Positions 3,539-25,654 of a stretch of 30,646 bases of DNA are shown in pieces. The notes below the pieces were generated by a model, which made no database searches, was not told the origin of the DNA, and was given only the letters and a program-made list of their open reading frames with translations. The DNA lies in the IMG/VR virus record IMGVR_UViG_3300005265_000747, positions 1 to 30,646 of that record, one strand, 5' to 3'. The position numbers and the translations under genes were made by a program. Every line of letters begins with the position of its first letter. The first letter of the stretch is position 1. Source of the stretch: a virus.

Positions 3539-3997
3539 ATATCAATAGATGCCGATAAGGCATACAGTACCGATAAGGTACACGAAATAAGAGATAACTC
3601 CATAGATCTTTCTCCAAAAGAAGTAATTCCTATAGATGATCATGGTCATTCAATAGAACTTCTCTTCTATAAAAGAATAAAAGTAGAACTCTTAACTAGT
3701 GCCCTTCTAAAAGAGATCTGGGAAATGAGAAATGCCAAAGCTCCTCTTTCTGTATTAGAAACTCCTTTCTTCTTTTTTCTTCAATATCCTTCTAAACCTG
3801 TAATAATTATAGATAAAAGAATAGGAAGACTTCTAACTCTTACAGATGGATTTTCCAAACATGAGCAAAGTAAACAAGCTGGATTCATTATTCGTATGCT
3901 TAAGAAATTCGATCTAGTTGAGAAGGTATCTTATAAGAGAATAACTCTCGAAGAATGGAAAAAGAAAAGAAACTCTTTCCGAGGTGAGAATGCATGA
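3539..3997 (+). CDS. Unknown small protein, start codon missing or frame broken near 3534
   Basis: The safe part is 3725-3997 (90 residues from ATG 3725), but the same frame is open back to TAA 3521-3523 and reads as plausible protein from about 3600 (SIDLSPKEVIPIDD and onward). No ATG, GTG or TTG exists upstream of 3725. A strong AGGAGGG at 3525-3531 sits eight bases before an ATA at 3539 and only a few bases before an out-of-frame ATG at 3534 that meets a stop after four codons. So either ATA is used, or a small indel broke the start. The C-terminal half (TLTDGFSKHEQSKQAGFIIRML) could be a small winged-helix domain. It overlaps the PAPS-reductase-like gene by four bases and may be its partner. 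Function unknown. Confidence 0.5.
   Translation: MSIDADKAYSTDKVHEIRDNSIDLSPKEVIPIDDHGHSIELLFYKRIKVELLTSALLKEIWEMRNAKAPLSVLETPFFFFLQYPSKPVIIIDKRIGRLLTLTDGFSKHEQSKQAGFIIRMLKKFDLVEKVSYKRITLEEWKKKRNSFRGENA
3549..3581 (+). repeat. Hairpins 3 and 4: tandem 15-base stem-loops with GATAA pentaloops
   Basis: ATGCC-GATAA-GGCAT (3549-3563) and GTACC-GATAA-GGTAC (3567-3581) are two perfect 5-bp stems with the same five-base loop, three bases apart. The closing pairs of the stems differ while the CCGATAAGG core is identical. Shape and loop resemble the boxB hairpins of lambdoid phages (GNNRA pentaloop), but nothing like an N protein is seen here. They may be RNA-protein sites, a leader regulator or mobile hairpins. 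Confidence 0.6.
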
Positions 3998-5064
3998 AAA
4001 TTGAAAAATTAAGAAAGAGACAAAAACTAAGTCTCGAAAGAAAGATTGCTCTTTCTAAGAAAATTATTAAACAGTTTTATGAGTTTCTAGATGGAAAAGT
4101 TTATGTTGCTTTTTCTGGAGGAAAAGATTCGACTGTTTTGTTACATCTTGTAAGAAGTCTTTATCCGGAAGTGCCTGCTGTTTTTTGTGATACTGGTCTA
4201 GAATATCCTGAGATAAGAAACTTTGTGAAGACTGTTCCAAATGTTATTTGGATAAGGCCTAAAATGAGCTTTGCTCAAGTTATAAAGAAATATGGCTACC
4301 CGGTTATTTCCAAAGAACAAGCAATGTATATTCGACAATATCGTACTACTAAGAGTCAATATCTTAAGAGCATAAGATGGGCCGGTAAAGATGGTAAATA
4401 TAAGATAAGTGAGAAATGGAAGTTCCTAGTTAATGCTCCTTTCAAGATCTCAGAAAGGTGTTGTGATGTTTTAAAGAAAGCTCCCTTTAGAAAGTTTGAA
4501 AGAGAAACAGGGCTTCGTCCATTCCTTGGGAATATGGCCTCAGATTCAGACGTAAGAACTCGTGTTTATCTTAAATATGGATGTAATTATTTCGAGAAAG
4601 TAGGGAAAGAGAGATCTACTCCTCTCGGTTTCTGGACAGAGAAAGATATTTGGGCCTACATTAAGAAATACAAATTAAAATATTGTAAAATTTATGACTT
4701 AGGTGTAGACAGAACTGGTTGTATTTTCTGTATGTTTGGTATTCATAAGGAGAAGAATAATCGATTTGAGATTCTAAAAAGATTGCATCCTGAATTATAT
4801 AATTATTGTATGGAGAAATTAGGCCTGAGAATGGTTTTAAAATATATAGAAAAGAATCTTCAAAGTCAAAAAAGAAAGCAAAGTAGGAAGAAGGTAAAAA
4901 AGAAGAATTCTCCTATAAAGAGTAAAGTTTATAAGAGGAAAACCCAAAAAATAAAGTCTAAAAGAGGTGAAAAAAAGTATGGATCCACAAATAATGATGA
5001 TCTTGTCCGGAGTCGGAAAGGGCCTTGTCTATGGTGGAATTGCAGCAGGTATTGGTTATATTAA
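3994..5064 (+). CDS. Phosphoadenosine phosphosulfate reductase-like (PP-loop) protein
   Basis: 356 residues; the ATG has GAGGTGA six bases upstream. The PP-loop SGGKDS is at 41-46, followed by CDTGLEYPEI (65-74). Conserved-looking cysteines are a CC pair at 156-157, C197, and C243/C246 in GCIFC, which could hold an iron-sulfur cluster as in DndC-like and many phage-encoded relatives. The family activates substrates by adenylation. In viruses the role is unclear: sulfur assimilation, DNA phosphorothioation or nucleotide modification have all been considered. The last 70 residues are Lys/Arg-rich and the final 29 run out of frame through the next gene. Removing one A from an A6 tract near 4945-4950 would give a stop at about 4953, so an indel may have extended it. 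Confidence 0.8.
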   Translation: MKIEKLRKRQKLSLERKIALSKKIIKQFYEFLDGKVYVAFSGGKDSTVLLHLVRSLYPEVPAVFCDTGLEYPEIRNFVKTVPNVIWIRPKMSFAQVIKKYGYPVISKEQAMYIRQYRTTKSQYLKSIRWAGKDGKYKISEKWKFLVNAPFKISERCCDVLKKAPFRKFERETGLRPFLGNMASDSDVRTRVYLKYGCNYFEKVGKERSTPLGFWTEKDIWAYIKKYKLKYCKIYDLGVDRTGCIFCMFGIHKEKNNRFEILKRLHPELYNYCMEKLGLRMVLKYIEKNLQSQKRKQSRKKVKKKNSPIKSKVYKRKTQKIKSKRGEKKYGSTNNDDLVRSRKGPCLWWNCSRYWLY

Positions 5065-11863: not shown

Positions 11864-12805
11864 TTATCTCGACCTCTTAAATTGTCTATCTAATATTCTT
11901 TCTATTTCTCGAGCAAACGACTCTGCTATTTCTCTACTTCCTACTGGAGCATTTATATTAATATTAACTACAGGTGGAGCTTCTTCCTCTTTCTTCTTTC
12001 TAGTAACTGTAGCAGGTACAACCTCTTCCCCCGCATGGAGATAAGCAATACCTTCTCTAGCAATTATTCCTCCTTCTTGGAGTTTAGGCACAATCGTTGC
12101 TACTAAAGCAGTACCCATTGCTTCAGCTACTCCGCCTAATCCTAAACCATGTAATAAGGCGAAAGCTCCAGCCAGAGCAACTATAGATGCAGAAAGGACA
12201 AAGAGAGCTCCCGCAAGAAGTGTAACCGGAATAATTGCCAAAGCAGCTGAGACTGCTAATAAGCCTAATCCTGCAGCTACACCTACTAATGCGCTTCCTA
12301 ACACAAAGAGACTAGGTGCAACTGCTGCTAATTGAGTAAGTCCTGAAGCAATTAATTGAAGACCTTCACCAAAGAGTTTGAATCCAAGTCCGACTAAAAG
12401 AACAGCAGCTCCTAATATTAACAGAGCGGCTGCACCCATTAAAGAAAGAGGACCTAACGTTCCTAAGATCTTAGTAATGAGAGCTAAGACTCCGATGAAG
12501 ACCAGAAGAGTTGCCGAAACTACTAAAAGAGCTCCAATTCCACCAGGTAAACTTAAGACTATTTGTAGGAATTGACCTAGAGCAAAAGTAAGTAGCCAAA
12601 CTGCTCCTACTAAAATTAATAAAGCAGCCACGCCTTTGAAAAGTGTAGGACCTAAATTACCCAAAACTTTCATAGCTAGTGATAAGCCAAGGACAAATCC
12701 AATTAAAGCTGCTCCAACAGCTACGAGTGCAGCAATAGCTTCCCAAAGACCAACACCCATTCCTAGAAGAGTAGCAAAGAACTGAGTAATAGTTACCATT
12801 AACAA
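11864..12805 (-). CDS. Tail tape measure protein, C-terminal part (after frame change)
   Basis: This frame continues the tape measure that starts at 13691. It is open from 12841 (its upstream stop is at 12842-12844) and first offers TTG 12805 or ATG 12799, but neither has a ribosome site. Long hydrophobic Ala/Leu/Gly segments (residues 1-225) are typical membrane-interacting tape-measure regions. The end has the signature EGGIIAREGIAYLHAGEEVVP, then VNININAPV and a helical tail, as in many tape measure C-termini. A +1 (or -2) change between about 12800 and 12841 would join it to the N-terminal part, giving roughly 600 residues in total. Sequence error, mutation or recoding are all possible. 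Confidence 0.75.
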   Translation of the reverse strand: MLMVTITQFFATLLGMGVGLWEAIAALVAVGAALIGFVLGLSLAMKVLGNLGPTLFKGVAALLILVGAVWLLTFALGQFLQIVLSLPGGIGALLVVSATLLVFIGVLALITKILGTLGPLSLMGAAALLILGAAVLLVGLGFKLFGEGLQLIASGLTQLAAVAPSLFVLGSALVGVAAGLGLLAVSAALAIIPVTLLAGALFVLSASIVALAGAFALLHGLGLGGVAEAMGTALVATIVPKLQEGGIIAREGIAYLHAGEEVVPATVTRKKKEEEAPPVVNININAPVGSREIAESFAREIERILDRQFKRSR

Positions 12806-13691
12806 AGCAAGAGCAGCAACTACTGCCGCTGTTGCCTGTAATTACTTCAAATAAATCCCAAAGATCTTCCATGATTGCGGGAAGGACTAAGAACGAAAGT
12901 CCTAGCATACCGAAGACAAAAGCAAGTTTTAATCCAAAGAAGAAAGTCTTTTTCAGACCAGCTTTCAAGCCTTTTATTCGATCAGCAAGAGTTTTCACAC
13001 TTCTTTGTTGAGGCTTTCCAAAGGATTCATAAAGTGCCTCATTAACGCCGTAAAGTTGAGCTACTAGTTTCTTTTGTTTCCCAGTAAGTCCTTCCATAAC
13101 TTCTTGCAGTTCTGCTCCTGTTACTCCATATCCTTTTTGGCTAGCAATAAAACGCCTAAGAGCTTCATCCCCTTTCATAAATTGAATCCATACTGCTCGC
13201 AGAGTAGTCCAAAGCCCTAAGTTTGCTCTTCTAGCTACAAGAACTGTACCAATATAAAGAGTTAGAGAACCTATCGTAGAAAGGATCATACCTACGAATT
13301 TCCCAAAAATAATTAAACCAAGACTTATGACAGCAAGATATTGCAAGATAGGATAACGTTCTAAGTGATCTGCAAAAGATTCAATTGCATTAGCTACGAT
13401 ATCTAAAACAGGAGCAAGTAAATCTCCTAAAACGTAACCGACATCCTCCAAAGCCCAAGAAATATCTTCTAGTCCAGCTTCCCACATTAGAGAGCCCTTT
13501 AAGACGGTTCCTATTTGACGTTCTAACATACCAAAGAATCTACTCATAGTCCCTCCTAATCTCATCATATCTCTGCCTGTTAGACGTAATCGTGCACCTA
13601 AAGCTTCTAACGCTCTATCTGCTTTAGTGAGTGGCCCAGTCTTGGCTGTGCTTTCAAGAAGTAAACCTATTGGAAATATTGCTCCTGGCAT
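12657..13691 (-). CDS. Tail tape measure protein, N-terminal part
   Basis: Starts at ATG 13691 after GAGGAGATAAATA. The first about 284 residues are tape-measure-like: a GPLTKADRALEALGARLRLTG opening helix, then a hydrophobic LAVISLGLIIFGKFVGMIL segment, a charged helical stretch, and another hydrophobic FGLKLAFVFGMLGLSFLV run. After the VITGN sequence (near 12830) the frame yields Cys/Ser/Tyr-rich junk to the stop at 12657, while the natural continuation lies in the next frame. Tape measures set tail length at about 0.15 nm per residue, so roughly 600 residues would imply a tail of around 90 nm. Confidence 0.75.
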   Translation of the reverse strand: MPGAIFPIGLLLESTAKTGPLTKADRALEALGARLRLTGRDMMRLGGTMSRFFGMLERQIGTVLKGSLMWEAGLEDISWALEDVGYVLGDLLAPVLDIVANAIESFADHLERYPILQYLAVISLGLIIFGKFVGMILSTIGSLTLYIGTVLVARRANLGLWTTLRAVWIQFMKGDEALRRFIASQKGYGVTGAELQEVMEGLTGKQKKLVAQLYGVNEALYESFGKPQQRSVKTLADRIKGLKAGLKKTFFFGLKLAFVFGMLGLSFLVLPAIMEDLWDLFEVITGNSGSSCCSCFVNGNYYSVLCYSSRNGCWSLGSYCCTRSCWSSFNWICPWLITSYESFG

Positions 13692-13740: not shown

Positions 13741-13899
13741 TCATCTTCTTCTCACTGCCCTGGCCTCTTTTCTCTTTTGCTCTTCCAAACTCTGAGCTAT
13801 CCAATTAAGTTGCAGCAGACTCAACTTTCTAATATCATCAAAAGTCCAGTGCATGTGGTACATCACTTGAAAGATTGTCTTTAAGACTTTGTTTTCAAT
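13741..13899 (-). CDS. Frameshift extension of the tail-assembly chaperone (gpGT-type)
   Basis: After a -1 slip on AAATTTA (13901-13907 on the minus strand) the ribosome would read 52 further codons, from ATT 13899 to TGA 13741-13743. The product contains MYHMHWTFDDIRKLSLLQLN and then a basic tail (EEQKRKEARAVRRR). The W-T-x-D-D-I-x-K-L pattern is typical of the second chaperone part in long-tailed phages. No ribosome site precedes it, so it is probably made only as a fusion with the upstream gene. It lies directly between chaperone and tape measure, where gpT lies in lambda. Confidence 0.75.
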   Translation of the reverse strand: MENKVLKTIFQVMYHMHWTFDDIRKLSLLQLNWIAQSLEEQKRKEARAVRRR

Positions 13900-14222
13900 A
13901 AATTTGCTAGCTTATCTATCGAATCCTTATCTAGCTCTGAAAACTTCTGAATTTCTAATGCTATCTCTAGAAGAACTTTATGGTTTAATTTCCTTACTTC
14001 GTCAGGCTTAAGTTTAGGCTCTGTTAGTCCTTTATAGACTAACCAGATATATTGTTCTAGCTCGTTATCTTTTGCTACTTTCATAATATCTGCTAGTTCA
14101 CCAACAGTTACTTTCTTAATCTTTATTTTCTTCTTTAGTGTCTGAATAGTTACCTCTTTTTCTCCAGTAGCTTCAGCTAGCAAGTCTGCTGCTTTAGCAA
14201 ACTCTTTAACTTCTACACTCAT
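13881..14222 (-). CDS. Tail-assembly chaperone (gpG-like)
   Basis: 113 residues, mostly helical, rich in K, E, L (VKEFAKAADLLAEATGEKE, then TIQTLKKKIKIKKVTVGELADIM). It resembles short tail chaperones (DUF-type gpG analogues) that hold the tape measure before tube assembly. AGGAGG before ATG 14222 is strong. It lies between tube and tape measure genes. Its last codons include the slippery sequence A-AAT-TTA, which permits the longer fusion product. A bulged hairpin lies upstream of its ribosome site. Confidence 0.7.
   Translation of the reverse strand: MSVEVKEFAKAADLLAEATGEKEVTIQTLKKKIKIKKVTVGELADIMKVAKDNELEQYIWLVYKGLTEPKLKPDEVRKLNHKVLLEIALEIQKFSELDKDSIDKLANLLKTKS
13895..13912 (-). promoter_or_regulatory. 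Programmed -1 frameshift site AAATTTA
   Basis: On the minus strand the codons read GCA AAT TTA, giving the canonical heptamer A AAT TTA (X XXY YYZ). After slippage both tRNAs can re-pair (AAA and TTT). The 0-frame stop lies six codons further on, and the -1 frame is open for 52 codons in a protein with gpT features. This matches the arrangement in lambda and most long-tailed phages. Confidence 0.75.
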
Positions 14223-14250
14223 ACGACTTACCTCCTTTCTTGGATTTTTC

Positions 14251-14285: not shown

Positions 14286-14666
14286 TTACACTAAGGCTAC
14301 AGATTTTGCTCTAAAGTCAAAGTCTTCCTTTAGGAAGCCATCTTGAGGGATATCTACTGCCCCTCTTTCAAACTTGCAGTTATAACAATAAAGTTTCACT
14401 GCACCACCACCAATCTCAAAGCAAAGAGTAAACTCATTAAGAGATCCACTACCAGTTACTAGTTGAAGGTATGTTTTATTGACCCAAGCTTTAGAAAGAG
14501 ATCCTGTGACCTCTTCATTCCCTTCGACTAGATCAGTTGGTTGTCTACCACCTATTTGATAGAAAGCTTCTAGATTAGTAGCTATTTCAACAGATGCTGA
14601 ATCTGCATGCCCTATTTCTACATCATCCTTGTAGATTTTTGCATTCCAACCTTTATAGACAGGCAT
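14286..14666 (-). CDS. Tail tube protein paralogue 3
   Basis: 126 residues from ATG 14666, chosen because TTAGGTGA lies seven bases upstream and MPVYKGW matches the start of both paralogues; an in-frame GTG at 14678 lies in the ribosome site. The protein has an MPVYKGWNAKI start, EIG, an EAFYQIGGRQPTDLVEG strand-loop, a GSLSKAWV segment, then FDFRAKSVALV as the last strand. Tube proteins form stacked hexameric rings that carry DNA. This copy has its own TTTAAATA box about 41 bases upstream, so it is perhaps the most abundant form. Confidence 0.75.
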   Translation of the reverse strand: MPVYKGWNAKIYKDDVEIGHADSASVEIATNLEAFYQIGGRQPTDLVEGNEEVTGSLSKAWVNKTYLQLVTGSGSLNEFTLCFEIGGGAVKLYCYNCKFERGAVDIPQDGFLKEDFDFRAKSVALV

Positions 14667-14699
14667 TCTCTTTTTCACCTAACATTAAAAGGAGCAAAG

Positions 14700-14711
14700 T
14701 TTTATTTAAAC
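14700..14711 (-). promoter_or_regulatory. TATA-like promoter box before tail tube 3
   Basis: CGTTTAAATAAA on the minus strand, centred about 41 bases before ATG 14666. If it is an archaeal TATA element, transcription would start about 14 bases before the ATG and still include the AGGTGA site. Confidence 0.45.
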
Positions 14712-14715
14712 GCTC

Positions 14716-15507
14716 TTAACAATTAAGAATAAAATAATCTAGATAAAAGCAATTTTGACCAATAGCATGCCAACACCAAACTTTGAATTTTGATAGTTTC
14801 TTTCCTTCAACAAGATGAGGTCTCACATTGTATTTGGTCCAGTCGTTATATAAAGTAAATTCTTTTGTGGTAGAAGAACCATCACTATAGGTAGCTACCC
14901 ATTTCATATATGAGGTTTCTGCGCAAATACGGGCATAAAAATAAAGTTCATTAATAAAATTAACAGGAATAGGAACTCCATAAATATCTTCAAAATTCTG
15001 CTCAATTGAGGAAGTACCAAAACCTACGGCACATTTACTTCCATCTTTTCCTAAGTCACCAATTTCCCAAGTTCCAGATTTTGACCAATAAGAGAAATCT
15101 CCAGTTTCGAAAGAATTATTCTTAAACATTTGTCCCGAAAAATAATATGGAGTAATGCTTTTAGCTATAAATTGAAAGTCTTCAGTGATTATCCCGCCTT
15201 GTCCTCCTATGAATGAGCCTTTTGATAGTTTACAATTTTCTACCAAAATACCCATTTTATCCACTTCAAGATCTAGTTCAAAGGTACTAGATGAATTTAA
15301 AAGGTTAAAGTAATAAGAATTAACCCAAGCTTTCTTAAAACTTCCTTGAAGTAAACGTTCTCCAGGAATTATTGTTGAAGGGAACCTTGCTCCAGCTTCA
15401 AAATAAGTCTCAGAGTTTTCCTCTATTTCTAATCTCCAGTTTTCGACATATCCTATTTCGATCCCATCAAGGAATAATTTTGCTTTCCACCCTTTATAAA
15501 CTGGCAT
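14716..15507 (-). CDS. Tail tube protein paralogue 2 with C-terminal carbohydrate-binding-like jelly-roll
   Basis: 263 residues, twice the length of its neighbours. Residues 1-120 are a tail tube domain (MPVYKGWKAKL, EIGY, ETYFEAGARFPSTIIPG, GSFKKAWVNS, DFQFIAKS). Residues 131-263 start NNSFETGDFSYWSKSG, then a beta-sandwich with YMKWVATYSDGS and a CFYLDYF end, a carbohydrate-binding-module-like jelly-roll also found at the end of the hub. The start TAATG overlaps the stop of paralogue 1. It probably decorates the tube outside, perhaps for glycan binding. It could be a minor tube subunit, as in phages that mix two tube proteins. Confidence 0.75.
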   Translation of the reverse strand: MPVYKGWKAKLFLDGIEIGYVENWRLEIEENSETYFEAGARFPSTIIPGERLLQGSFKKAWVNSYYFNLLNSSSTFELDLEVDKMGILVENCKLSKGSFIGGQGGIITEDFQFIAKSITPYYFSGQMFKNNSFETGDFSYWSKSGTWEIGDLGKDGSKCAVGFGTSSIEQNFEDIYGVPIPVNFINELYFYARICAETSYMKWVATYSDGSSTTKEFTLYNDWTKYNVRPHLVEGKKLSKFKVWCWHAIGQNCFYLDYFILNC

Positions 15508-15911
15508 TAGACAACAGCCACAGATTTAGCTATGAAAGTATAATCTTCAGTTAAAACTCCTTCTTGAGGGATAGTAATCGTTCCTTTACTAAATTTACAG
15601 TCATAGACATATAATCCTAATGCAAAACTAGGTGACTGCCCTGGAGGTTTATTCCAGACTTGAATATAGAGATCGAAAGAAGAAAGACTTCCTGAACCAG
15701 AAATCAAACTTAGATAAGTTGTATCAACCCAAGCTCTTTTGAAAGAGCCAGTAATATTCATAGGTCCTTCCACTATTTGAAGGGTACTTCTATTCCCTGC
15801 TTCGAAATAAGCTTCTAAAGAATGATCTATATCAATTCTTACTTGTTGGACTTTGCCAACTTCAGTACCATCTATTAGTATCTTTGCGTTCCAACCTTTG
15901 TAAACTGGCAT
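15507..15911 (-). CDS. Tail tube protein paralogue 1
   Basis: 134 residues; GAGGGAATAAA precedes the ATG. It shares MPVYKGWNAKI, EVGKVQQVRIDIDHSLEAYFEAGNR and GSFKRAWVDTTYLSLISGSGSL with the two following genes, plus the FIAKSVAVV end strand. The family is the phage tail tube/major tail protein (gpV-like) fold. It follows the tail terminator gene with one base between them. Which of the three is the main tube subunit cannot be told. Confidence 0.75.
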   Translation of the reverse strand: MPVYKGWNAKILIDGTEVGKVQQVRIDIDHSLEAYFEAGNRSTLQIVEGPMNITGSFKRAWVDTTYLSLISGSGSLSSFDLYIQVWNKPPGQSPSFALGLYVYDCKFSKGTITIPQEGVLTEDYTFIAKSVAVV

Positions 15912-15912
15912 T

Positions 15913-16407
15913 TTATTCCCTCGGCCATAATACTGTTATTCTTATAGTTATAGTTTTTCTATGAAGAAGATTATCTTCATCTAGAGGATGAGAGAACATT
16001 CCAATTTCTTCAATGTCCAGAATTCCATGACTATTCTTTAGAGTTTCTTTTCCCGTCTCGAGGATTCTGATAACTTTTTCAGCAAGGAAATCTCTCAATT
16101 TAGTACCTACATAAGTTGTAGAATCAAAAGTTGCTTTATCGTTCATCTTAACCCAAACATCAATATCATAATCAATCATAGCTACTTTTGCTAAAGTAAA
16201 TGTACTTCCACTTTCTGTTATTGGAGAAATTTTATCCCCGATTCCTGCAGGACTTAAGATAGCTCCTGTTTGAGTAACAGATATCCTTGGGAAAGTAGCA
16301 TCCATCCGAGGATAATCACTGTAAATCCAATTCCCACTTCCATGGGGATTTGGCATATTATTTCTCAGATGTGTGACAAGAGCTGTAGTTAGATTAACGA
16401 GCCACAA
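15913..16407 (-). CDS. Tail terminator / tail completion protein
   Basis: 164 residues from TTG 16407, which overlaps the preceding gene. Position between the neck gene and the tube gene, plus the layout (a starting helix LTTALVTHLRNN, then FPRISVTQTGA, a YDIDVWVKMND strand and RKTITIRITVLW at the end), fit the gpU/gp17-type terminator fold. Such proteins cap the finished tail and bind the head connector. No single signature motif is diagnostic; confidence is from context and pattern. Confidence 0.6.
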   Translation of the reverse strand: MWLVNLTTALVTHLRNNMPNPHGSGNWIYSDYPRMDATFPRISVTQTGAILSPAGIGDKISPITESGSTFTLAKVAMIDYDIDVWVKMNDKATFDSTTYVGTKLRDFLAEKVIRILETGKETLKNSHGILDIEEIGMFSHPLDEDNLLHRKTITIRITVLWPRE

Positions 16408-16999
16408 TTTGTACTTTCCCTCTTTTACTTCTCATTATAGTTCTCTTCTTGACCTTAATTTCCTTTTCTAAGAACTTAAGAATTTCTCTATGTCTTCTTG
16501 TTACAATTCTATAGATCCAAGGATTTGTTCCTGTTCTAGCAGGTTGTTTGACCTTTCTTGTAATTACCCATGTTTTCGCCCCTTTTTTACCTGGTGGTGG
16601 TCTAGCTACTTTTGGATTTCTAAAGACTAAAGTTCCTAATGGGAATGTCATTGCCTTTCCTTTAATGGTAATTGCTCTTCTCCCAGAATGTAGAGAGAGT
16701 AAAGCCATCAAAGCATGATAAGCAGGACTTCCTCTTATACTTCCTCCTGGAATCCCTATTGTTCTATACTTATACTTTCCATGTGTGGTTCTTATAATTT
16801 TTAAATGTTTTCGTATTAATCCTTTAGGTACTGAAGGGTTATTCCCACTATAAACTGGTGTTTCAGAAATTACTTCTGGATAAATAGAATAAATCCAATC
16901 AGAGAAAGCTTTAAAATAAGCCTCAGCAATTGGCTCTTTAAGATGTTTAGGATAACGTGCTTTAAGTACTAGCCCGATTACTCTTACTTTCCTTGGCAT
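16394..16999 (-). CDS. Neck protein, HK97 gp10-like
   Basis: 201 residues, basic, with start TAATG overlapping the head-closure stop. Typical gp10-like features are the N-terminal helix (AYFKAFSDWIYSIYP) followed by SETPVYSGNNPSVPKGLIRKHLK, comparable to the tail-side P-x-x-[ST]-G-x-L-R motif, and a basic C-terminus with RTIMRSKRGKVQIV. Family members join the head to the tail. Larger and more basic than most, with a proline/glycine-rich central loop (RPPPGKKGAKTW). Function by position and motif. Confidence 0.6.
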   Translation of the reverse strand: MPRKVRVIGLVLKARYPKHLKEPIAEAYFKAFSDWIYSIYPEVISETPVYSGNNPSVPKGLIRKHLKIIRTTHGKYKYRTIGIPGGSIRGSPAYHALMALLSLHSGRRAITIKGKAMTFPLGTLVFRNPKVARPPPGKKGAKTWVITRKVKQPARTGTNPWIYRIVTRRHREILKFLEKEIKVKKRTIMRSKRGKVQIVAR

Positions 17000-17376
17000 T
17001 AGATCACTCTCTTAAGAACCGCTCTTTTGTACCAGATCTTTTCTCCATAATAATAGTCTTCTATTGAATCTATTCTCCAAGTTTTACTGTTCCAAGTAAC
17101 TTCGTCCTCAGCTTCAATACTAATTGTTTTTCCTCGGACTAAATATGATGGAAGAAAAAAGCCAAAAGCATCTCCTATGCTCAGAGTGCCAGGAACTACA
17201 TAAGCTAAGTCCTCAGAAGTTATTTCCTGAATTTCAGCTTTAATTGTATAAGTTCCAGAAACACTTCGACCTCTTTGGCCATAAGCATCTTCTTCATCAC
17301 TATAGGAATATTTAGTAAGAGTAACTTCCTTTCGAAGAATTTTCTTAAGGACATACTTAGGTGGTATCTTTAACAT
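16999..17376 (-). CDS. Head closure (stopper) protein
   Basis: 125 residues from ATG 17376, chosen since AGGTAGGA lies six bases upstream; the longer ORF start at 17409 gives an extra 11 residues with no ribosome site. The beta-rich pattern (LTKYSYSDEEDAYGQRGRS, then EDLAYVVPGTLSIGDAFGFF, then ISIEAEDEVTWNSKTWRIDSIEDYYYG) resembles phage head-closure proteins such as SPP1 gp16. It overlaps the connector gene by 20 bases. Role: seals the connector channel. Confidence 0.6.
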   Translation of the reverse strand: MLKIPPKYVLKKILRKEVTLTKYSYSDEEDAYGQRGRSVSGTYTIKAEIQEITSEDLAYVVPGTLSIGDAFGFFLPSYLVRGKTISIEAEDEVTWNSKTWRIDSIEDYYYGEKIWYKRAVLKRVI

Positions 17377-18064
17377 AGCGTTTCCTACCTCTACTTTCTT
17401 CATAATCAACTACAGTCCCTGGTCCCCTGAATCTACCTTTTATCCTAGGAGCAAGAACCATTTTTCTATATCTGACATAGTCCATAGGAACAGAAGTTAT
17501 TTGGTTGACTATTCTAAAGAACTCTTCTCTTAATCTTTCCCATGGTTGAACACTTCTTACTCTTATCCCACCAATTGCAAAAGTTTCTGGCACTAGATAT
17601 TGTTCTCTAGCAACCCAAAGCATTCCAGCATAATAAGCTGTTGCTAAATTAACTAAATCCCAATCAATAGCTTTAGTATAATAGGAATAATCTATAGTTA
17701 TTTTCTCCACATCAGTAGATGGTGCAGAACTTAAGACAAATTTCCCATGTTCGGGATAAAAAGTAGAAACAGTAGCTTCTACCCTTGAACCAGGGTCATC
17801 TTCATCAGTCCATAAATAAATAGTAAAATCGTTAGTAGTTATTTTCTTATCAAAGTCTGTATCTGCTATGAACTTATTAGAAACAGAGAAAGTATTATTA
17901 CTTCCATTTATAGACCCTGTCATGGTTTCATCTTTAATTTGAACTTGCCAATACTTAATTACTACGTGTTGAGCTTTATCTATAAATTCTTCTAGAATAT
18001 CATCAGGTGCATCTTCTATAGTAACACCCAATAAGTCTCTAATCTCTTGAGGAGTAGTATACAT
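17357..18064 (-). CDS. Head-tail connector/adaptor protein (gp6/gp15-like)
   Basis: About 235 residues from the ATG at 18064 (MYTTPQEIRDLLG); the open frame goes back to 18121, but those residues are not typical. Starts with the helical EIRDLLGVTIEDAPDDILEEFIDKAQHVV seen in phage gp6-like connectors, where a short PD-x-x-[IL]-x-x-x-I motif precedes a long helix. A beta-rich insertion (60-140) follows, then helices. A GTTTAAATG box lies 36 bases upstream of ATG 18064. The family forms a 12-subunit ring below the portal. Confidence 0.65.
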   Translation of the reverse strand: MYTTPQEIRDLLGVTIEDAPDDILEEFIDKAQHVVIKYWQVQIKDETMTGSINGSNNTFSVSNKFIADTDFDKKITTNDFTIYLWTDEDDPGSRVEATVSTFYPEHGKFVLSSAPSTDVEKITIDYSYYTKAIDWDLVNLATAYYAGMLWVAREQYLVPETFAIGGIRVRSVQPWERLREEFFRIVNQITSVPMDYVRYRKMVLAPRIKGRFRGPGTVVDYEESRGRKRYVKDTT

Positions 18065-18093
18065 CTTCCTCACTAGAAATACTTCATCTACCA

Positions 18094-18105
18094 CACATTT
18101 AAACC
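18094..18105 (-). promoter_or_regulatory. TATA-like promoter box before the connector gene
   Basis: GGTTTAAATGTG on the minus strand, about 36 bases before ATG 18064, the same spacing as boxes at 14700, 21590 and 25643. It lies just after the terminator-like hairpin that follows the capsid gene, which suggests a fresh start for neck and tail genes. Confidence 0.45.
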
Positions 18106-18146
18106 TTATGAGAAAACACACAAATTAGAACTTAAAATATTTGGGA

Positions 18147-18192
18147 GAAAAAACAAAAAGAAAAGGTTAAACGATCACACAGGATCGTAACC
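18147..18192 (-). terminator. Intrinsic-type terminator after the major capsid gene
   Basis: On the minus strand GGTTA-CGATC, loop CTGTGT, GATCG-TT-TAACC forms a 10-bp stem with a two-base bulge. It is followed by T4-C-T5-G-T6 (18147-18164). It lies 30 bases after the capsid stop. This is the strongest terminator-like signal in the window and may limit read-through so that capsid is made in excess. Confidence 0.65.
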
Positions 18193-18221
18193 TAAATTTT
18201 ATTTAACTTTTAACTGGCAGC

Positions 18222-19256
18222 TTAAAGATCAGCTGAACCGTCTGTTATGTTAACTATCAGTTCCAGAGCATCTTTGTCTGTTACCTTGACACCATACTCC
18301 ACATAGAAGTATAGTTCTATCGAGTCAGTTGCAGGATTATCCCATCTCTTCATATCTAGCCTTCTTCTTACTGCAAACCAAGCAGCTCTGGTTGGGTCTA
18401 TAACTAGAGCAGCTCCATCAGGCATTTGAGTTGTAACCAAGACTTTCAGACCAGCTATCTTACCTATCTCACCATTGACTATTGGTTCATTAGTTCCATA
18501 TTTAGCAGCATCAATGAACATATTGCTCTTCAGAATTCCACCCAAAGCATTAGGATGAATTACTATGAACTGAGGACGCCATTTTCTTGCTTTAACTGCT
18601 GTTACTGCTTTGACTATTGCTTTATAGCCATTCACTGACCAAGTGCCTTCAGAGAGAGCATCTACACAGTAACTCTTACCATGAGCAGATTGCCAATAAG
18701 TTATTGTACAAGCACCTGAAGCAACTATTTTGCCATCATAGTAATCTGCCTTTACAAAGTTACTTTCTGACTCTTCAACATAGACAAGAGCTCCGCCAGA
18801 TATTGTCGCAGTTCCTGCAGCTCCAAAGGTATGAGCATCCTCTGTATAATCCAGCAATGCTTTCATAATATCAGAGTCTTCTTTGTCTGCCAAAGCAATT
18901 CCTGCTTCTGTGACCGCATCCCTTATCAGGTTAAGTTCACAGCCTTCTATAGCTTCTTGAGTTATGTGCACTGCCACACCCTTCTTTGAGGGCGTAATTG
19001 TATTAGAAGTATAAGTTATTTTGGAGCTAGATAGTTCTGTTCCTTCTGAAACATCTTGAGCTGTCAAGGTTCCTCTGCGTCCAATTACTATTGAACGCCC
19101 TTTAGTCCTAACAAGGTCTTCATTTATTCGGACCAAGTTACGACCAAATCTACGAGCCCTTGCAGCTTCTTCTACTTCATCAAGGATAACCTTTGGTATC
19201 AAGTCTGTGATAGCAGAGACACTTATTGTACTTGCCAGTTCTTCTAAACTTTTCAT
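18222..19256 (-). CDS. Major capsid protein (HK97 fold, N4-gp56/P22-coat-like)
   Basis: 344 residues from ATG 19256 (MKSLEELASTISVSAI); GGGTGA lies eight bases upstream, the in-frame GTG at 19268 belongs to that site. The segment TLTAQDVSEGTELSSSKITYTS followed by ITPSKKGVAVHITQEAIEG is the hallmark E-loop/spine region of the N4-gp56 and P22-coat branch of HK97-fold capsids. RWRPQFIVIHPNALGGIL and GLKVLVTTQMPDG fit the A-domain. It follows the protease-scaffold gene as expected. It is flanked by its own promoter box and by a hairpin terminator, consistent with high expression. Confidence 0.85.
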   Translation of the reverse strand: MKSLEELASTISVSAITDLIPKVILDEVEEAARARRFGRNLVRINEDLVRTKGRSIVIGRRGTLTAQDVSEGTELSSSKITYTSNTITPSKKGVAVHITQEAIEGCELNLIRDAVTEAGIALADKEDSDIMKALLDYTEDAHTFGAAGTATISGGALVYVEESESNFVKADYYDGKIVASGACTITYWQSAHGKSYCVDALSEGTWSVNGYKAIVKAVTAVKARKWRPQFIVIHPNALGGILKSNMFIDAAKYGTNEPIVNGEIGKIAGLKVLVTTQMPDGAALVIDPTRAAWFAVRRRLDMKRWDNPATDSIELYFYVEYGVKVTDKDALELIVNITDGSADL

Positions 19257-19269
19257 TTTTATATTCACC

Positions 19270-19285
19270 CTTGTATATTTACAAG
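19270..19285 (-). promoter_or_regulatory. Perfect palindrome in the capsid leader
   Basis: CTTGTA-AATA-TACAAG, arms of six bases, immediately before the GGGTGA ribosome site of the capsid gene. As DNA it is a possible operator; as RNA a short hairpin that could block or protect the ribosome site. No protein that binds it is identified. Confidence 0.4.
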
Positions 19286-19310
19286 AGTACGTAATATAGA
19301 AAGAAAGAAT

Positions 19311-19321
19311 TATATTTAAAA
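19311..19321 (-). promoter_or_regulatory. TATA-like promoter box before the capsid gene
   Basis: TTTTAAATATAAT, about 60 bases before ATG 19256, giving a leader of about 35 bases that holds the palindrome. The sequence also includes TATAAT, so a bacterial -10 box is an alternative, though no good -35 is seen. Confidence 0.5.
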
Positions 19322-19331
19322 GTAGTCCTTA

Positions 19332-19568
19332 CTATTCTCTTCCTCTTTTTATAAGATCATGCTTAAGGGCATAGTGCAAGAGTTCAGCTACATCGTATTC
19401 TCGAAGCATCTCTTCTATTTCTTCTCTGCTAGGCTGATCTTCTTTTACTTCTGTATTTGAAGGTTTAGAAACCTGTTGCTGAATTTGCATTTTTTGGATT
19501 TCAACAAGACTCTCTACTGCTTTCTTAAGTTCTTTGATTTGCTCTTCTAGAGATTTTTCTTCTGACAT
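19332..19568 (-). CDS. Small coiled-coil protein between protease-scaffold and capsid
   Basis: 78 residues: a coiled-coil front (SLEEQIKELKKAVESLVEIQKMQ), a Gln/Ser/Thr/Pro linker and a helical end (REEIEEMLREYDVAELLHYALKHDLIKRG). The ATG follows GAGGAAGGACG. Proteins of this size between scaffold and coat genes in other phages are decoration, scaffold-helper or capsid-stabilising proteins. No motif decides between them, so the role is unknown. Confidence 0.55.
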   Translation of the reverse strand: MSEEKSLEEQIKELKKAVESLVEIQKMQIQQQVSKPSNTEVKEDQPSREEIEEMLREYDVAELLHYALKHDLIKRGRE

Positions 19569-19592
19569 CGTCCTTCCTCTTTAGAGAGAAGC

Positions 19593-21557
19593 TTAGAATT
19601 TTTTCTTCTTGATTAGCTCAAGAAGGATCTCAGGGTAGTTTTCCCTGACAAATTTCTCTAGTTCTTCTGGAGTAGGTTCTTTCTTTTCTTCTTTAGGCTC
19701 TTCAGCTTTTGGAGCTTCTTCTTGGACTGTTTCTTCTTGCTTAGTTTCTGCAGGTTTCTCTTCTATGGGTTTTTCTTCTGAAGGCTTAGATTCAACTTTG
19801 GGCTCTTCTACCTTTGGAGTTGCTACTTCCTCTTTTTTAACTTCTGGTTTAGGTTCCACAGGTTGTTCTGTCTTTTCTATTTCTTCTTTCACTTCTGGTT
19901 TAGGCTCTTCTGTTTGAATTTCCTCGGTTTTCTCGACTTTAGGTTCGACTGGTTTACTTTCTTCTGCCTTTGGTGTCTCTTCTTTGATTTCCTCTTTCTT
20001 TTCAGCACAAGGTTCTTCAGGACATGGTTTCTTTTCTTGAGGAGCTTCTTCCATTTTAGTAACCTCAGGTACTTCATTCCCTAACTCCTTTATATCTGTT
20101 GCCGACTTCTCTTCAAGAGACTTAGTTATTTCTTCTGTTTGTTCTTCAATTGTAGCAGACTTCTGTTCTTTTTTCCATTCAGCAGCACAAGCTTTCATTC
20201 TCTTAACAACATCCGGAATTTCTTCTGCCTTTTCTTTCATACACTTTTTCATAAAGTCTTTGTAATTACCTGCTAATTCTAGAAGATCTAAAAGTTCTTC
20301 TTCTGCTGATTTCTCTTCTGGTTTAGGTACACATTTTTTCTGCTCAGGATCCCAAACTTGTCCTTCTGGGCATTTATATTCTGGTTCCTTCTCTTGTTTC
20401 TCTTCTTTTTCTTTTTCTTCTTCCTCTTCTTCCTCTTCGTCTTCTTTGTCTGCATCAGACTTAGGCATTGGATATTTACCGTAGTAAGGATAGTAAGGAT
20501 ATCCATAGTAAGGATATTGCCCTTTGCCATAGTAAGGATATTTGTAGTAAGGATATCCATAATAGCCATAGTACACTGAAACTACTTTTCTACCTCTTTT
20601 CTTAAGTTCTGCTACTTCTTCAGGACTCTCAAGTTCTAAGACAGCCCAAAGAGATTTCTTCTCTGGTTTCTTTGCTTTCTTTTTCTTCTTTGGCTTGTAA
20701 GGATAGTATGGGTAATACGGATAGTATGGATATGGGTATTTGCCATAGTATGGATAAGGATATCTATAGCCATAGTAATAAGTCACTACTTTCTTTCTTG
20801 CATTCTCTTCTAGTTCAGAAAGATCTTCTAGTTCAACAACAGCATAGAGTTTTGGTGATTCTATTTCAGAGAGATCGATTTCTTCTTCCTCTTCCTCTTC
20901 CTCTTCTTCCTCAGTTTTCAATTCTTCAAGGACTTCTTCTTTTTCTTCTTTTTCTGACATTTTTTCCACTGCCTCTTTCTTTTCAATATTTATATTTAAT
21001 CTTTTTGACAGTTCTTCTACTGCAAATATGAAACACTTATCACATGCAGGAGACTTTACGAGAGAAAGTTCGTTGAACAAGTAATTAAAGCCTATAGACT
21101 GTTCAGAGTTAATTGGGAACTTGTCTAACCAAGTTGAACAAGAGACTGCTGGGAAAGTTCCATCTTTAACTTTCTTAATAGCTTCTGGGTCTGTAACTTC
21201 TGCCTTAAAGATTAAGGACCTAAGAGTAGGATCATAATAAGTTTCTAAGACTTTGCCAACAGTTCTATCCTTAAAGTGTTCATCTAAACCATGTTCAACT
21301 TTCAAAGGTTTGCCCTCTAGTCTCTTAACTGCTTTCGCTATTTCCTCTTTCGGATAAAGAACATTTTTCCAGACTCCTTCAGTCAAGGCTACTCCCGAAA
21401 TTATTAATTTCTCCTTTTTCTCTTCTAATGAAATAAAAGGAAGAGAAAACTCTACTTTCTCATGAGTAATATTCTTAGCCGTTTTCAATAATCTTTCTAA
21501 TTGTTCTCTCTCAGCTTTAATTACATCAAATATTCCAGATGAGTCTGAAATATCCAA
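19593..21557 (-). CDS. Prohead protease fused to a Glu-rich, Tyr/Pro-repeat scaffold (XkdF-like)
   Basis: 654 residues from TTG 21557 with AGGTGA six bases before. The protease domain (about 1-185) has ISGVALTEGVWKN, the H in VEHG (H89), S in VSCST (139/141) and E in NELSLVKSPA (E163), matching the H-S-E triad pattern of S78/XkdF-type phage proteases. Beyond 200 it is scaffold-like: a run of about 15 Glu, then two related modules (237-290 and 303-366), each with an [LY]-x-AV-x-ELE helix followed by Tyr/Pro/Gly repeats. A CPEGQVWDPEQKKC two-cysteine loop (396-409), a helical part with C439 and C457, and a long Lys/Glu/Pro tail to the end follow. Such fusions are cleaved during capsid maturation. 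Confidence 0.8.
   Translation of the reverse strand: MDISDSSGIFDVIKAEREQLERLLKTAKNITHEKVEFSLPFISLEEKKEKLIISGVALTEGVWKNVLYPKEEIAKAVKRLEGKPLKVEHGLDEHFKDRTVGKVLETYYDPTLRSLIFKAEVTDPEAIKKVKDGTFPAVSCSTWLDKFPINSEQSIGFNYLFNELSLVKSPACDKCFIFAVEELSKRLNINIEKKEAVEKMSEKEEKEEVLEELKTEEEEEEEEEEEIDLSEIESPKLYAVVELEDLSELEENARKKVVTYYYGYRYPYPYYGKYPYPYYPYYPYYPYKPKKKKKAKKPEKKSLWAVLELESPEEVAELKKRGRKVVSVYYGYYGYPYYKYPYYGKGQYPYYGYPYYPYYGKYPMPKSDADKEDEEEEEEEEKEKEEKQEKEPEYKCPEGQVWDPEQKKCVPKPEEKSAEEELLDLLELAGNYKDFMKKCMKEKAEEIPDVVKRMKACAAEWKKEQKSATIEEQTEEITKSLEEKSATDIKELGNEVPEVTKMEEAPQEKKPCPEEPCAEKKEEIKEETPKAEESKPVEPKVEKTEEIQTEEPKPEVKEEIEKTEQPVEPKPEVKKEEVATPKVEEPKVESKPSEEKPIEEKPAETKQEETVQEEAPKAEEPKEEKKEPTPEELEKFVRENYPEILLELIKKKKF
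20460..20849 (-). repeat. Duplicated coding module with Tyr/Pro/Gly repeats
   Basis: Two copies of a unit in the protease-scaffold gene: copy 1 encodes LYAVVELED, an Arg/Lys KVV, then YGYRYPYPYYGKYPY and more; copy 2 encodes LWAVLELES, KVV, then YGYYGYPYYKYPYYG. At DNA level the tail is a loose tandem array of units like CCATAGTAAGGATA (plus strand). The two helices differ while the layout is the same, so the duplication is not recent. The Tyr-rich arrays may have spread by slippage. Confidence 0.75.
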
Positions 21558-21589
21558 TATCTCTCACCTACTCTTAAAGAATTGAATAT

Positions 21590-21601
21590 TTTTATTTAAG
21601 T
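21590..21601 (-). promoter_or_regulatory. TATA-like promoter box before the protease-scaffold gene
   Basis: ACTTAAATAAAA on the minus strand, about 40 bases before TTG 21557, the spacing seen at the other boxes. Confidence 0.4.
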
Positions 21602-22056
21602 TCTTCTTCATCATCTAATATCTCCCATAGAATAGGAGTAAAGTCCTTCTTTCCAATACAACTTAATTCTTCCTCAAATCTAACTACTAAGTTTCCCGTT
21701 AGACTTAATTCCATTTTTACGGGATAAGAAAGGATCCCTCTTAGAGGGAACTTATGAGCAAAAGGAATAGAAGTCGAACCAATTAAAGAAAGACTTTTAC
21801 TAAAACTTAAAGACGGAAAGCCTGTAATTAGAAACTTAGAAAAGAAAGGAGAAAAAGGAGCTCCTTTAACTAAAACAAAACTTTTGTAGGGAAATACTTT
21901 ATCACCAAAGACTTTAATTGTTTCTCTGAACTTTCTTCGTCTAACAGGAATTACTCTAGTAATTATTTTCTTAATAACTTTAATTATCCATTTAAGCCAG
22001 CCATAGCCTTGAGTAATAAGAGAAGAACCACCTAGTCCCTTAGTTACTATACTCAT
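21592..22056 (-). CDS. Fibre-like protein with seven exact 14-residue glycine repeats
   Basis: 154 residues. The N-terminus (1-45) has a hydrophobic helix and a basic cluster. From residue 47 on, glycines fall at 51, 65, 79, 93, 107, 121 and 135, exactly 14 apart. Each unit has the form hydrophobic-x-hydrophobic-x-G then about nine residues with a central F/V/Y strand (e.g. LSLIG, FPLRG, LSLTG). This resembles the 15-residue repeat of adenovirus and reovirus fibre shafts (triple beta-spiral). A beta-solenoid is the alternative. The TAATG start overlaps the previous gene. It ends in an acidic tail. Confidence 0.65.
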   Translation of the reverse strand: MSIVTKGLGGSSLITQGYGWLKWIIKVIKKIITRVIPVRRRKFRETIKVFGDKVFPYKSFVLVKGAPFSPFFSKFLITGFPSLSFSKSLSLIGSTSIPFAHKFPLRGILSYPVKMELSLTGNLVVRFEEELSCIGKKDFTPILWEILDDEEELK

Positions 22057-23210
22057 TAAACAGGAACCCTCTCTGAATAAGCTTTCTTCTGTTCTCCTTT
22101 GAGCAAGAATTTCTTAAGTATAGTCTGACCATCAGTATCATAAATTATTAGATAATCTCCTTCTATCTTCCATCTTCCAGTTTCTACCTTCTTCAGAAGA
22201 GTTACATCACTCTCTATGTTCTCTATTTTACTCTTAACTGTACTTCCATCTTCAACATCCCAGACTTTCTCAGCTATATCTGTTTTGTCACTTTCAGTAA
22301 GGCCAGAAGTCATAGAGATAATTCCTTGAGAAGAAACCTGAAAAGTAATAGAAATAACTCCTGCTCCAGGAAGGACAATCCTTTCAGAACCATCGTCAGT
22401 TATTATGGTTCCGATTAAAACTAATCTATAATTTCCTTCCTCAGGAGCTAGCTTCCATCCATTCGTAAGCATGAAAATCTTATCCGTATAAACATTTCCT
22501 CCAAGAGGAGCATATCCTGTTGCTGACATCGGACAAGAGTAAGAAATCCCTTCTGGATTATCTGCCCAATCCATAGCTTGATTATAAATATCTTGAACAT
22601 CGATTTCTATTGGATGAACAGTAGCTTTATATCCAGGAGTATAAGTTCTTGTTAAAGAAGTTTTTAAAATAAAGTTTTGCCCTGACCAAGAAGAATATTC
22701 ATATCTATCTGATTCTCCAACATAAATTCCAGCAGGCCATCCTAAAGTAGCTAAAGCATCTGAAGTCCCCGGCTTAAGTCTAAAGGCATAGACATCACCT
22801 TCATATCCTTCCTTGTATCTTATTCCAACTCTTTCTCCATTATGAAAAGCCTCTAAGTATTGATTATGTGGAAAAGGGGAAGAGAGTTGTTGATTAATAT
22901 GACTTACGATTGAATCTAAATCAGGACAATTCTGATTAAGAGTAACTTGAGTAAACTGATTATAAGAAGCTTTAGAATAAACATAAAAATTTTCAGGAGA
23001 GGAGGACCAATCATGTCCTCCCGAGAGATCTACAGTCCCCATACATTCTGCTTTTGACAAAGCTAGACTTATTTGTCCCTCATCAGGTGTCTCAGCAGGA
23101 ATAGTTTCATTTACAGTAACTGTATTGGATCCAACTGTTGCCTCTGAGATAGTAAACTTTTGAGAAAGGATTTGGATCCATTTCATAGAAGGAAGGAAAT
23201 TAATTGTCAT
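22056..23210 (-). CDS. Structural protein with the phage fibre C-terminal VWD/RWKI motif
   Basis: 384 residues. The N-terminal part is beta-rich and unlike any enzyme (FTISEATVGSNTVTVNETIP, then a repeat-free middle with DWADNPEGI). The last 80 residues carry TDIAEKVWDVEDGS, a short coiled coil (KIENIESDVTLLKKV), then GRWKIEGDYLIIYD and DGQTILKKFLL, a block common at the C-terminus of phage minor structural and fibre proteins. Overlaps neighbours on both sides. Likely a trimeric accessory fibre or head-fibre protein. Confidence 0.6.
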   Translation of the reverse strand: MTINFLPSMKWIQILSQKFTISEATVGSNTVTVNETIPAETPDEGQISLALSKAECMGTVDLSGGHDWSSSPENFYVYSKASYNQFTQVTLNQNCPDLDSIVSHINQQLSSPFPHNQYLEAFHNGERVGIRYKEGYEGDVYAFRLKPGTSDALATLGWPAGIYVGESDRYEYSSWSGQNFILKTSLTRTYTPGYKATVHPIEIDVQDIYNQAMDWADNPEGISYSCPMSATGYAPLGGNVYTDKIFMLTNGWKLAPEEGNYRLVLIGTIITDDGSERIVLPGAGVISITFQVSSQGIISMTSGLTESDKTDIAEKVWDVEDGSTVKSKIENIESDVTLLKKVETGRWKIEGDYLIIYDTDGQTILKKFLLKGEQKKAYSERVPV

Positions 23211-23415
23211 TCTGTATCACTATACTTGGATTAAGTTCCTTGAATTCTTTGTATTTATACCACTGAATCCACTTTCTATTTCTGCCTTTGATCATTACTT
23301 CTACATACTCTTCTAGCTTAAGAGTGTCGTTGTTTACTGCATCTTTGACAGCAAACTTCACTTTTTTGAAATATAGTCCTTCTCGTATTCTTCCATTTGG
23401 ATCTTTAAACTTCAA
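23200..23415 (-). CDS. Unknown small protein
   Basis: 71 residues from TTG 23415 with GAGAGTGA upstream. The product is basic with several Trp/Tyr (RKWIQWYKYKEF) and an opening KFKDPNGRIREGLYFKK. No motif recognised. It lies between two fibre-type genes and overlaps the next by 11 bases, so it is co-translated and probably a virion or assembly protein, e.g. a fibre accessory. Confidence 0.5.
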   Translation of the reverse strand: MKFKDPNGRIREGLYFKKVKFAVKDAVNNDTLKLEEYVEVMIKGRNRKWIQWYKYKEFKELNPSIVIQNDN

Positions 23416-23429
23416 AGCTATTCACTCTC

Positions 23430-25613
23430 TTAAGTCACAATTCCATCTGAAGTTCTAATCGCTGAAACTCTCAATCCTGTATCAGTGAAAGTAGCTGCTA
23501 GTTGGAATGGGATTATTCCTTTCCTTCTGACTACTACTAAGACATATCTATCGGCTATATACTTTACTGTTACTGACTCTTGAGAAGCATCTGCTTGTCT
23601 GTCAAGATAAGGTACATAGGCCTTGTCAGAAGAAGTATAAGCTCTTGAAGTTGTTCCTTGTATCATAAACTTCTTGTTATCAAAGTCTATTGAGTTATAT
23701 GCATAGATATCTTCTCCTTCAGTAGGTTGACCTACATTATATCTTACTCGAATAACACCTGGCATGTCTTCTTCTTTATATGGAGTATCTACAGGAATTT
23801 CTTCTTGTACTTCGATATAATTAACACCAGAGCTTTGACCAGCTAGAGTGAATTGAGACTTATTAATTGTAGTAGATCCTTGTCCAGTTGTTGGGAAGAT
23901 CGCTACTCTATCTCCAGCAACCAGGCTTGTAACGACATAAGATTGCCAGTTTGGAGGATCATGAGTTGTATTGTTATGATCTATTAACTGATAGTTTCTG
24001 ATATCATTGATATCCATGTTTTGTATCCAGATTCCTCTAGCTCCAAAGAATTTGCCACCGGCAAAGGTGCCTAGAGGTGAAGCCTTCTTTATCTGAGTAT
24101 AAGAAGTATCTGCCCTTTGATATTGTTCACCTTCTATTTGATAAATAGTTGAAGTTCCATCAGTTGGATAGAGAATAAAGCTAGAAGTTCGTCTGCAGAG
24201 ATATTTCACAAATTCATATAACTCAGCAACAGTTCTTGACCCTAAGTCTATTACTACACTGTAAGGCTTAGCTCCTTGACCATCATCTATGTCTTTGTTA
24301 ATGGTATTATCGAATGTTAAAGTACCAGCAGCTTGTCCAGACCAATTATAGTCTGTCTGAGTACCTAAAGCTTTCGCGATAGTATTTCCAGAAACTAACA
24401 AGTTTTCTCCATCTTGGAAGTCATTGGCATTTCTATCCGAAAGATAAAGATAACCTATAGTTGCTCCATCTATTTGATCTAAGTATCTAATAACTCCTTG
24501 AGCATTAGAACTCTCTCCTGTGACTGTATCTCCTACATAAAAGGTTCCAGACGGATTGTTAAATGTTAGTTCTGACAAGAACTCCAAAGAGTCATTATCA
24601 TTAAAAGTCCCAGATGTATTACCAAGTTTGAAGGTGCCAGCAACTGTACCACCAGAAACTTGTTCTAAAACTACTCCAACGGCATGAGAAGAAGTATCAT
24701 GAATAACATGAGATACCACATTAGTTGGTAGAGTACCTGAACCGTTATCATAAGCTAAATCTCCATGAACAAACCAGACTTTTATATCTTTTATATAATT
24801 AGCAACAGTAGATCCTGCAGTCTGGTTGTCCAAGTCATCTGAAGTAGCCAAAGGCACAGCATTTCTACCACCAGCAGACAAGTCAATCTCATAAAAGTCA
24901 TAAAAGTCGGTATATTCTCTAGCATAGACAGTCAGAACACCATTGTCAATCTCAGTGCCAGCTTCTTTGACTCTAACAAGAATGTCAATGTGCCCCGCAG
25001 GCCACCATTCACTACCAATACCCCAATAAGAGGGATATCTTTCTCCTGCTTGTATAACATAAATGTTAGTACCAGACTCAATTGTACCTAGGGTGTAGAT
25101 GTTTGCATAAAGATCTTCTCCTGTTTTCGAACAATTTGAAGACAAAAGAGTACCAGCACCAGTACCTCCATTGATTGAAATAGATGTTCCACAAGAGGGA
25201 ATTGTTCCTGTCTTTCTTACCCACCATTTTCTTTTTGTATTGTTGTAATATAATAGAACACCAAAGTCCCCGCCACCATTTTGAACATATTTACCGATAT
25301 CTCCAGAGACACAGTTTGTATAACCAGAAGATTGTAAATAGAGAATGTAAATCTCCCCATCCCAACCATCGGTCTTTATAGCTCCACCTTTGAGATACTT
25401 AAGAGAGTTTTCATCGATAAACCAACCATTTACTAAAGTATACTCTGTAGGTGTCTGAGCAGTCATAGGTATAGGATCGTCCATGTATTGTTGACTGTCG
25501 AATTCATCCATTAGCCAAGAATAAAGATCATTAACAGTAAAGGTTGAGGGACCAGAAGTTGTATAAATCCTTTTGTTTAAAGCATCTATGTTCCATTCAT
25601 CAGATATGGCCAT
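23430..25613 (-). CDS. Large tail fibre-type protein (marine-phage family)
   Basis: 727 residues from ATG 25613, with GTAGGTGA six bases upstream; an in-frame GTG at 25622 lies in that site. The start (WNIDALNKRIYTTSGPSTFT, then LYSWLMDEFD, MDDPIPMTAQTPTEYTLVNG and WFID) is like a widely seen uncharacterised phage protein family that sits near capsid genes. The middle has repeated units (GTFKLGNTSGTFNDNDSLEF, then SGTFYVGDTVTGESS) as in fibre stalks, followed by a beta-rich end. Its own TATA-like box lies about 37 bases upstream. Probably an adhesin or head fibre; the exact location on the virion is unknown. Confidence 0.65.
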   Translation of the reverse strand: MAISDEWNIDALNKRIYTTSGPSTFTVNDLYSWLMDEFDSQQYMDDPIPMTAQTPTEYTLVNGWFIDENSLKYLKGGAIKTDGWDGEIYILYLQSSGYTNCVSGDIGKYVQNGGGDFGVLLYYNNTKRKWWVRKTGTIPSCGTSISINGGTGAGTLLSSNCSKTGEDLYANIYTLGTIESGTNIYVIQAGERYPSYWGIGSEWWPAGHIDILVRVKEAGTEIDNGVLTVYAREYTDFYDFYEIDLSAGGRNAVPLATSDDLDNQTAGSTVANYIKDIKVWFVHGDLAYDNGSGTLPTNVVSHVIHDTSSHAVGVVLEQVSGGTVAGTFKLGNTSGTFNDNDSLEFLSELTFNNPSGTFYVGDTVTGESSNAQGVIRYLDQIDGATIGYLYLSDRNANDFQDGENLLVSGNTIAKALGTQTDYNWSGQAAGTLTFDNTINKDIDDGQGAKPYSVVIDLGSRTVAELYEFVKYLCRRTSSFILYPTDGTSTIYQIEGEQYQRADTSYTQIKKASPLGTFAGGKFFGARGIWIQNMDINDIRNYQLIDHNNTTHDPPNWQSYVVTSLVAGDRVAIFPTTGQGSTTINKSQFTLAGQSSGVNYIEVQEEIPVDTPYKEEDMPGVIRVRYNVGQPTEGEDIYAYNSIDFDNKKFMIQGTTSRAYTSSDKAYVPYLDRQADASQESVTVKYIADRYVLVVVRRKGIIPFQLAATFTDTGLRVSAIRTSDGIVT

Positions 25614-25642
25614 TAAATTCACCTACTACTTTTAACTTATTT

Positions 25643-25654
25643 TTTTATTTAAAC
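25643..25654 (-). promoter_or_regulatory. TATA-like promoter box before the large fibre gene
   Basis: GTTTAAATAAAA on the minus strand, centred 37 bases before ATG 25613. Together with the boxes at 14700, 18094, 19311 and 21590 it forms a consistent set. Confidence 0.45.

Follow-up and report, generated by a model that had tools for sequence, protein, structure and literature searches.

The gpG-like gene, its slippery heptamer and the −1 frame

We analysed a stretch of 30,646 nucleotides of viral DNA (IMG/VR record IMGVR_UViG_3300005265_000747, hereafter the window, to which all coordinates refer) and concentrated on the 3′ end of a gene encoding a gpG-like tail assembly chaperone, where a second reading frame follows in the −1 phase. 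The gpG-like gene lies on the minus strand, comprises 113 codons in the 0 frame (13881..14222) and was assigned from the reading of its open reading frame (ORF), a match to PHROG 344 and its predicted fold. It is preceded by a strong Shine-Dalgarno-like AGGAGGT (14230..14236, minus strand) and ends with ...CTA GCA AAT TTA TTG AAA ACA AAG TCT TAA. This 3′ end contains a slippery heptamer, A_AAT_TTA, placed in the X XXY YYZ phase (13899..13905, minus strand) and recognized from the sequence and its conservation; the sixth codon past it is the TAA stop that terminates gpG (13881..13883, minus strand). The −1 frame, recognized by a homologous extension in related viruses, encodes a gpT-like part of 52 codons (13744..13899, minus strand) and closes with a TGA (13741..13743, minus strand). 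A ribosome slipping at the heptamer would thus yield ...KLANL followed by 52 residues (IENKVLKT...RAVRRR), i.e. a predicted gpGT fusion of 160 amino acids.

The −1 part includes the string HWTFDDIRKL, a match to W-T-x-D-D-I-x-K-L, and no conserved Shine-Dalgarno sequence precedes its earliest potential starts (GTG-ATG), in contrast to gpG and the tape measure gene, both of which have GGAGG/GAGGAG. These features had been claimed in an original prediction made from the letters of the window, and our analysis confirmed the AAATTTA in phase (GCA-AAT-TTA, 13905-13899, minus strand) within the gpG-like gene, the 52-residue frame ending at TGA 13743-13741 with its W-T-x-D-D-I-x-K-L string and without a good ribosome site, and the 0-frame stop six codons past the heptamer. 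The further claim that ORF callers miss the gene holds for the one list compared, a mechanical ORF list with a cut-off of 50 amino acids or more, which omits the −1 ORF. The gene map of the window was corrected by adding this 52-residue extension.

Taken alone, the sequence of the window is suggestive of a frameshift and falls short of proof, because the heptamer has a probability of ~0.08 in the window (given its amino acids and the window codon usage) and five in-phase words of the form A_AAT_TT(A/C/T) occur in the 9,688 codons of the window's mechanical ORFs; a single heptamer from a single genome carries little weight.

Conservation of the junction among relatives

Relatives were collected by scans with the capsid protein and gpG and by alignments, giving nine distinct readable junctions, the window included, with the gpG proteins of the relatives sharing 49-67% identity with that of the window. 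Excluded from the nine were L020, another contig, with the same sequence as L008 across the 559 bases compared; L026, in which the contig end truncates gpG; and L002/L015, L003, L005, L006, L007 and L027, which gave no gpG match and stop 0.2 to 3.8 kb past the capsid gene, at or before the expected place of gpG. Loci L012-L014, L016-L019, L021-L023 and L029-L044 are repeat copies of contigs already in the collection.

The original prediction had proposed that the same arrangement be sought in relatives, and that a relative lacking either the slippery site or the −1 extension would speak against it. Among the nine distinct junctions no such case was found: every one combines an in-phase heptamer (A_AAT_TTA in seven; A_AAT_TTT in the two others, L009 and L011) with a homologous −1 extension. 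The six letters AAATTT are identical throughout. Around them, the codon before AAT differs between relatives (GCA, GAA, CGA or CAA), the residue following Asn is either Leu (TTA) or Phe (TTT, in L009 and L011) with the heptamer retained, and the 0-frame stop lies 5, 10 or 11 further codons on.

Within the heptamer, the two wobble positions (columns 41 and 44) show a mean pairwise identity of 1.0 (n = 9), as against 0.25-0.61 for the 13 wobble positions that precede it, and the seven columns starting at 41 are the most conserved seven-column stretch of the 149-column alignment. Pairwise differences in the −1 frame fall mostly on the third codon position (475/369/787 for positions 1, 2 and 3), a pattern that marks a translated frame. 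The 12-13 residues between the heptamer and the first in-frame ATG are also conserved in the −1 frame in all nine junctions. Judged from these alignments, the conservation across relatives is clearly more than chance would be expected to leave.

Identity of the two parts of the predicted fusion

All nine gpG proteins matched the PHROG 344 profile, ‘tail assembly chaperone’, at E-values up to 1 (best 1.6e-5; 0.0073 for the gpG of the window). The AlphaFold model of gpG (mean predicted local distance difference test score, pLDDT, of 73) was most similar to YqbN (3klu; Z 8.6, 83 residues, 12% identity) and to the HK97 tail assembly chaperone (PDB 2ob9; Z 7.6, 84 residues, 16% identity), followed by two uncharacterised chains (Z 6.7 and 4.3) and then by unrelated rows at 2.6 or less. 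The predicted fold of gpG resembles both proteins at low sequence identity, and such a resemblance on its own does not demonstrate a function. In a fold search, models of archaeal and bacterial virus proteins with the name tail assembly chaperone, including one from a halophage, matched gpG at weak E-values; the gpG protein gave no match at E 0.1 against 50,697 annotated phage records, and its profile no significant match by sequence against PDB. The gpG part is supported as a tail assembly chaperone by profile, fold and gene order, and these, together with conservation, also support the chaperone fusion of the original prediction as a predicted product.

The −1 part was modelled as three helices (pLDDT 89). 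It had originally been called the second tail chaperone part; its position, frame and conservation fit this description, and it is on these that the putative ‘T’ assignment rests.

Proposed programmed frameshifting and its rivals

The features above point with high confidence to a programmed −1 frameshift of the lambda gpG/gpGT type, with putative slippage at the heptamer. We infer that most ribosomes would terminate at TAA and release gpG, and that a minority would slip one base back, the tRNAs on AAU and UUA re-pairing with AAA and UUU, and would continue in the −1 frame to give the 160-residue gpGT. For the roles of the two products we infer, by analogy with lambda, that the G part would bind the tape measure protein and the rarer GT would recruit the tube protein, in which case the gpG:gpGT ratio would matter for assembly.

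Several observations weigh against this reading. The nine relatives are kin and so do not represent nine independent events. Fold Z-scores of 7-9 lie partly within the range possible by chance, and the −1 part returned no significant family match in sequence or fold searches. Candidate stimulators also failed: a downstream stem-loop was unsupported by the RNAalifold consensus (−0.14 kcal/mol, with two-sided change in one of ten pairs) and by folding of the nine single sequences downstream (z −1.64 to +0.63), in a search that covered stem-loops, with pseudoknots outside its reach. As for an internal Shine-Dalgarno sequence upstream of the heptamer, AGGA/GGAG occurs scattered in five of the nine sequences at inconsistent spacing, and this candidate was rejected.

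The main rival is that the −1 part is made as a separate small protein, without any fusion, by ribosomes that reinitiate after termination or initiate internally at the conserved GTG/ATG (VMY). The in-frame ATG is indeed invariant in all nine junctions, with the 0-frame stop at it or within ~20 bases, and the stop overlaps or almost overlaps this ATG in L004, L008 and L028. Unlike gpG, however, the ATG has no conserved Shine-Dalgarno sequence, and this route leaves unexplained both the invariant wobble positions of the heptamer and the −1 frame residues conserved upstream of the ATG; we consider it improbable as the sole source of the −1 product, although reinitiation could occur besides frameshifting. 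Still less probable is a fusion that arises by transcriptional slippage, with ribosomes not involved: a run of six T is present at the site in L009 and L011, but in the other seven sequences the site consists of no more than three or four A followed by three T, and such runs are short for polymerase slippage. A coincidental origin of both the heptamer and the open −1 frame is contradicted already and has a negligible likelihood, since the word, though not rare in a single genome as counted above, is kept at all nine junctions together with a conserved −1 protein sequence, for a naive joint probability of ~10^-8 that shared ancestry makes overstated.

Genomic neighbourhood and probable host

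The gene order around the junction is tube, chaperone and tape measure, with two overlapping small ORFs between the tube and tape measure genes. Upstream on the minus strand are three tandem tail-tube-like genes (14286-14678, 14716-15507 and 15507-15911), all matching Pfam Phage_tube_2, with the score of the middle gene under the curated cut-off. The middle one of these paralogues (14286-15911, minus strand) also has a longer C-terminal part. A terminator-like site at 14337-14324 lies inside a tube gene, with 0.5 such sites expected by chance, and was ignored.

Downstream, also on the minus strand, the tape measure gene occupies two frames (11864..13691, as 12657-13691 plus 11864-12805) identified by their tape measure matches in PHROG; the first piece (12657-13691) matches weakly. 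A tape measure homologue also follows the junction in L008, L009, L010 and L011, and the gene is a single ORF of 679-824 codons in all six relatives with a complete copy. The two frames of the window overlap, with the transition near 12780-12810. The split is probably an indel or an assembly error of the window contig and not a conserved recoding event.

Elsewhere in the window, a long ORF (19593-21557, minus strand) that precedes the capsid gene has a middle region rich in Glu/Lys/Pro and in Tyr-Pro (YYGYPYYPYY); as a guess, its product could be a head protease or a scaffold. The capsid protein itself weakly matched two annotated phage records, both from one Streptomyces phage. A 762-residue protein encoded near the contig end (28036-30324, minus strand) matches the LigD 3′-phosphoesterase domain below the cut-off, which is odd for a virion gene block. 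On the plus strand, a PAPS-reductase-like gene (3994-5064) lies near the block 794-3404, the proteins of which look like putative products of sugar-nucleotide genes.

A contig 98.1% identical over window positions 14433-29265 belongs to the metagenome-assembled genome (MAG) ‘Archaeoglobales archaeon B35_G2’, whose scaffold name points to Guaymas. On this binning evidence the virus probably infects an archaeon of the Archaeoglobales and is probably a tailed virus of heat-loving archaea; viral contigs can be misbinned, and the archaeal host is only probable because of this and because no support was found from clustered regularly interspaced short palindromic repeats (CRISPR) or proviruses. In 59 genomes of the class of this MAG, the capsid profile matched four, the strong match being the virus contig of the MAG itself and the other three weak. 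Among the matches listed for CRISPR spacers in the same 59 genomes, all were short or weak, except those to the MAG's own virus contig, and six of the short or weak match places had no direct repeats.

Comparison with known systems

Frameshifted chaperones of this kind are already known, and the window virus is very probably a further case, in a poorly studied virus group. The model is the G/GT pair of lambda, whose −1 frameshift is a conserved feature of long-tailed phages (Xu et al., 2004, as described in PMC5009743). As in lambda, a short gpG gene sits between the tail tube genes and the tape measure gene, immediately before the latter, with a slippery site near its 3′ end and a −1 extension; the window group differs in using A_AAU_UU(A/U) and in a gpG that matches none of the annotated phage records searched. 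The same heptamer, AAATTTA, is given in a table of PMC3835772 as the slippery site of Rous sarcoma virus gag-pol. The genes are unrelated, and Rous sarcoma virus has a pseudoknot stimulator whereas the window junction has no supported one.

For archaea, a 2021 review counts one experimentally shown −1 frameshift besides proposals for haloviruses (PMC8211752), and in the open-access literature we found no report of such a frameshift in Archaeoglobi or in thermophilic archaeal tailed viruses. The proposals concern the haloarchaeal siphoviruses HVTV-1, HCTV-1, -2 and -5 and Hardycor1 (PMC5009743, PMC8211752 and PMC7911831). Like the window group, these are archaeal tailed viruses with the gpG/gpGT layout and a classical X_XXY_YYZ site, but use other heptamers than A_AAT_TTA/T, and the window group probably has a thermophilic archaeal host. 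The junction described here belongs to an archaeal virus group different from the haloviruses and, being compact and conserved with a defined heptamer, is a ready reporter construct for −1 slippage by archaeal ribosomes. We offer tentatively, as a somewhat doubtful possibility, that the ribosomes of (hyper)thermophilic Archaeoglobales may need no structured downstream RNA stimulator to slip efficiently on A_AAU_UUA, the Rous sarcoma virus heptamer, or on its near variant A_AAU_UUU, and that this virus group would then have its own type of signal, distinct from the purine-rich sites of the haloarchaeal viruses.
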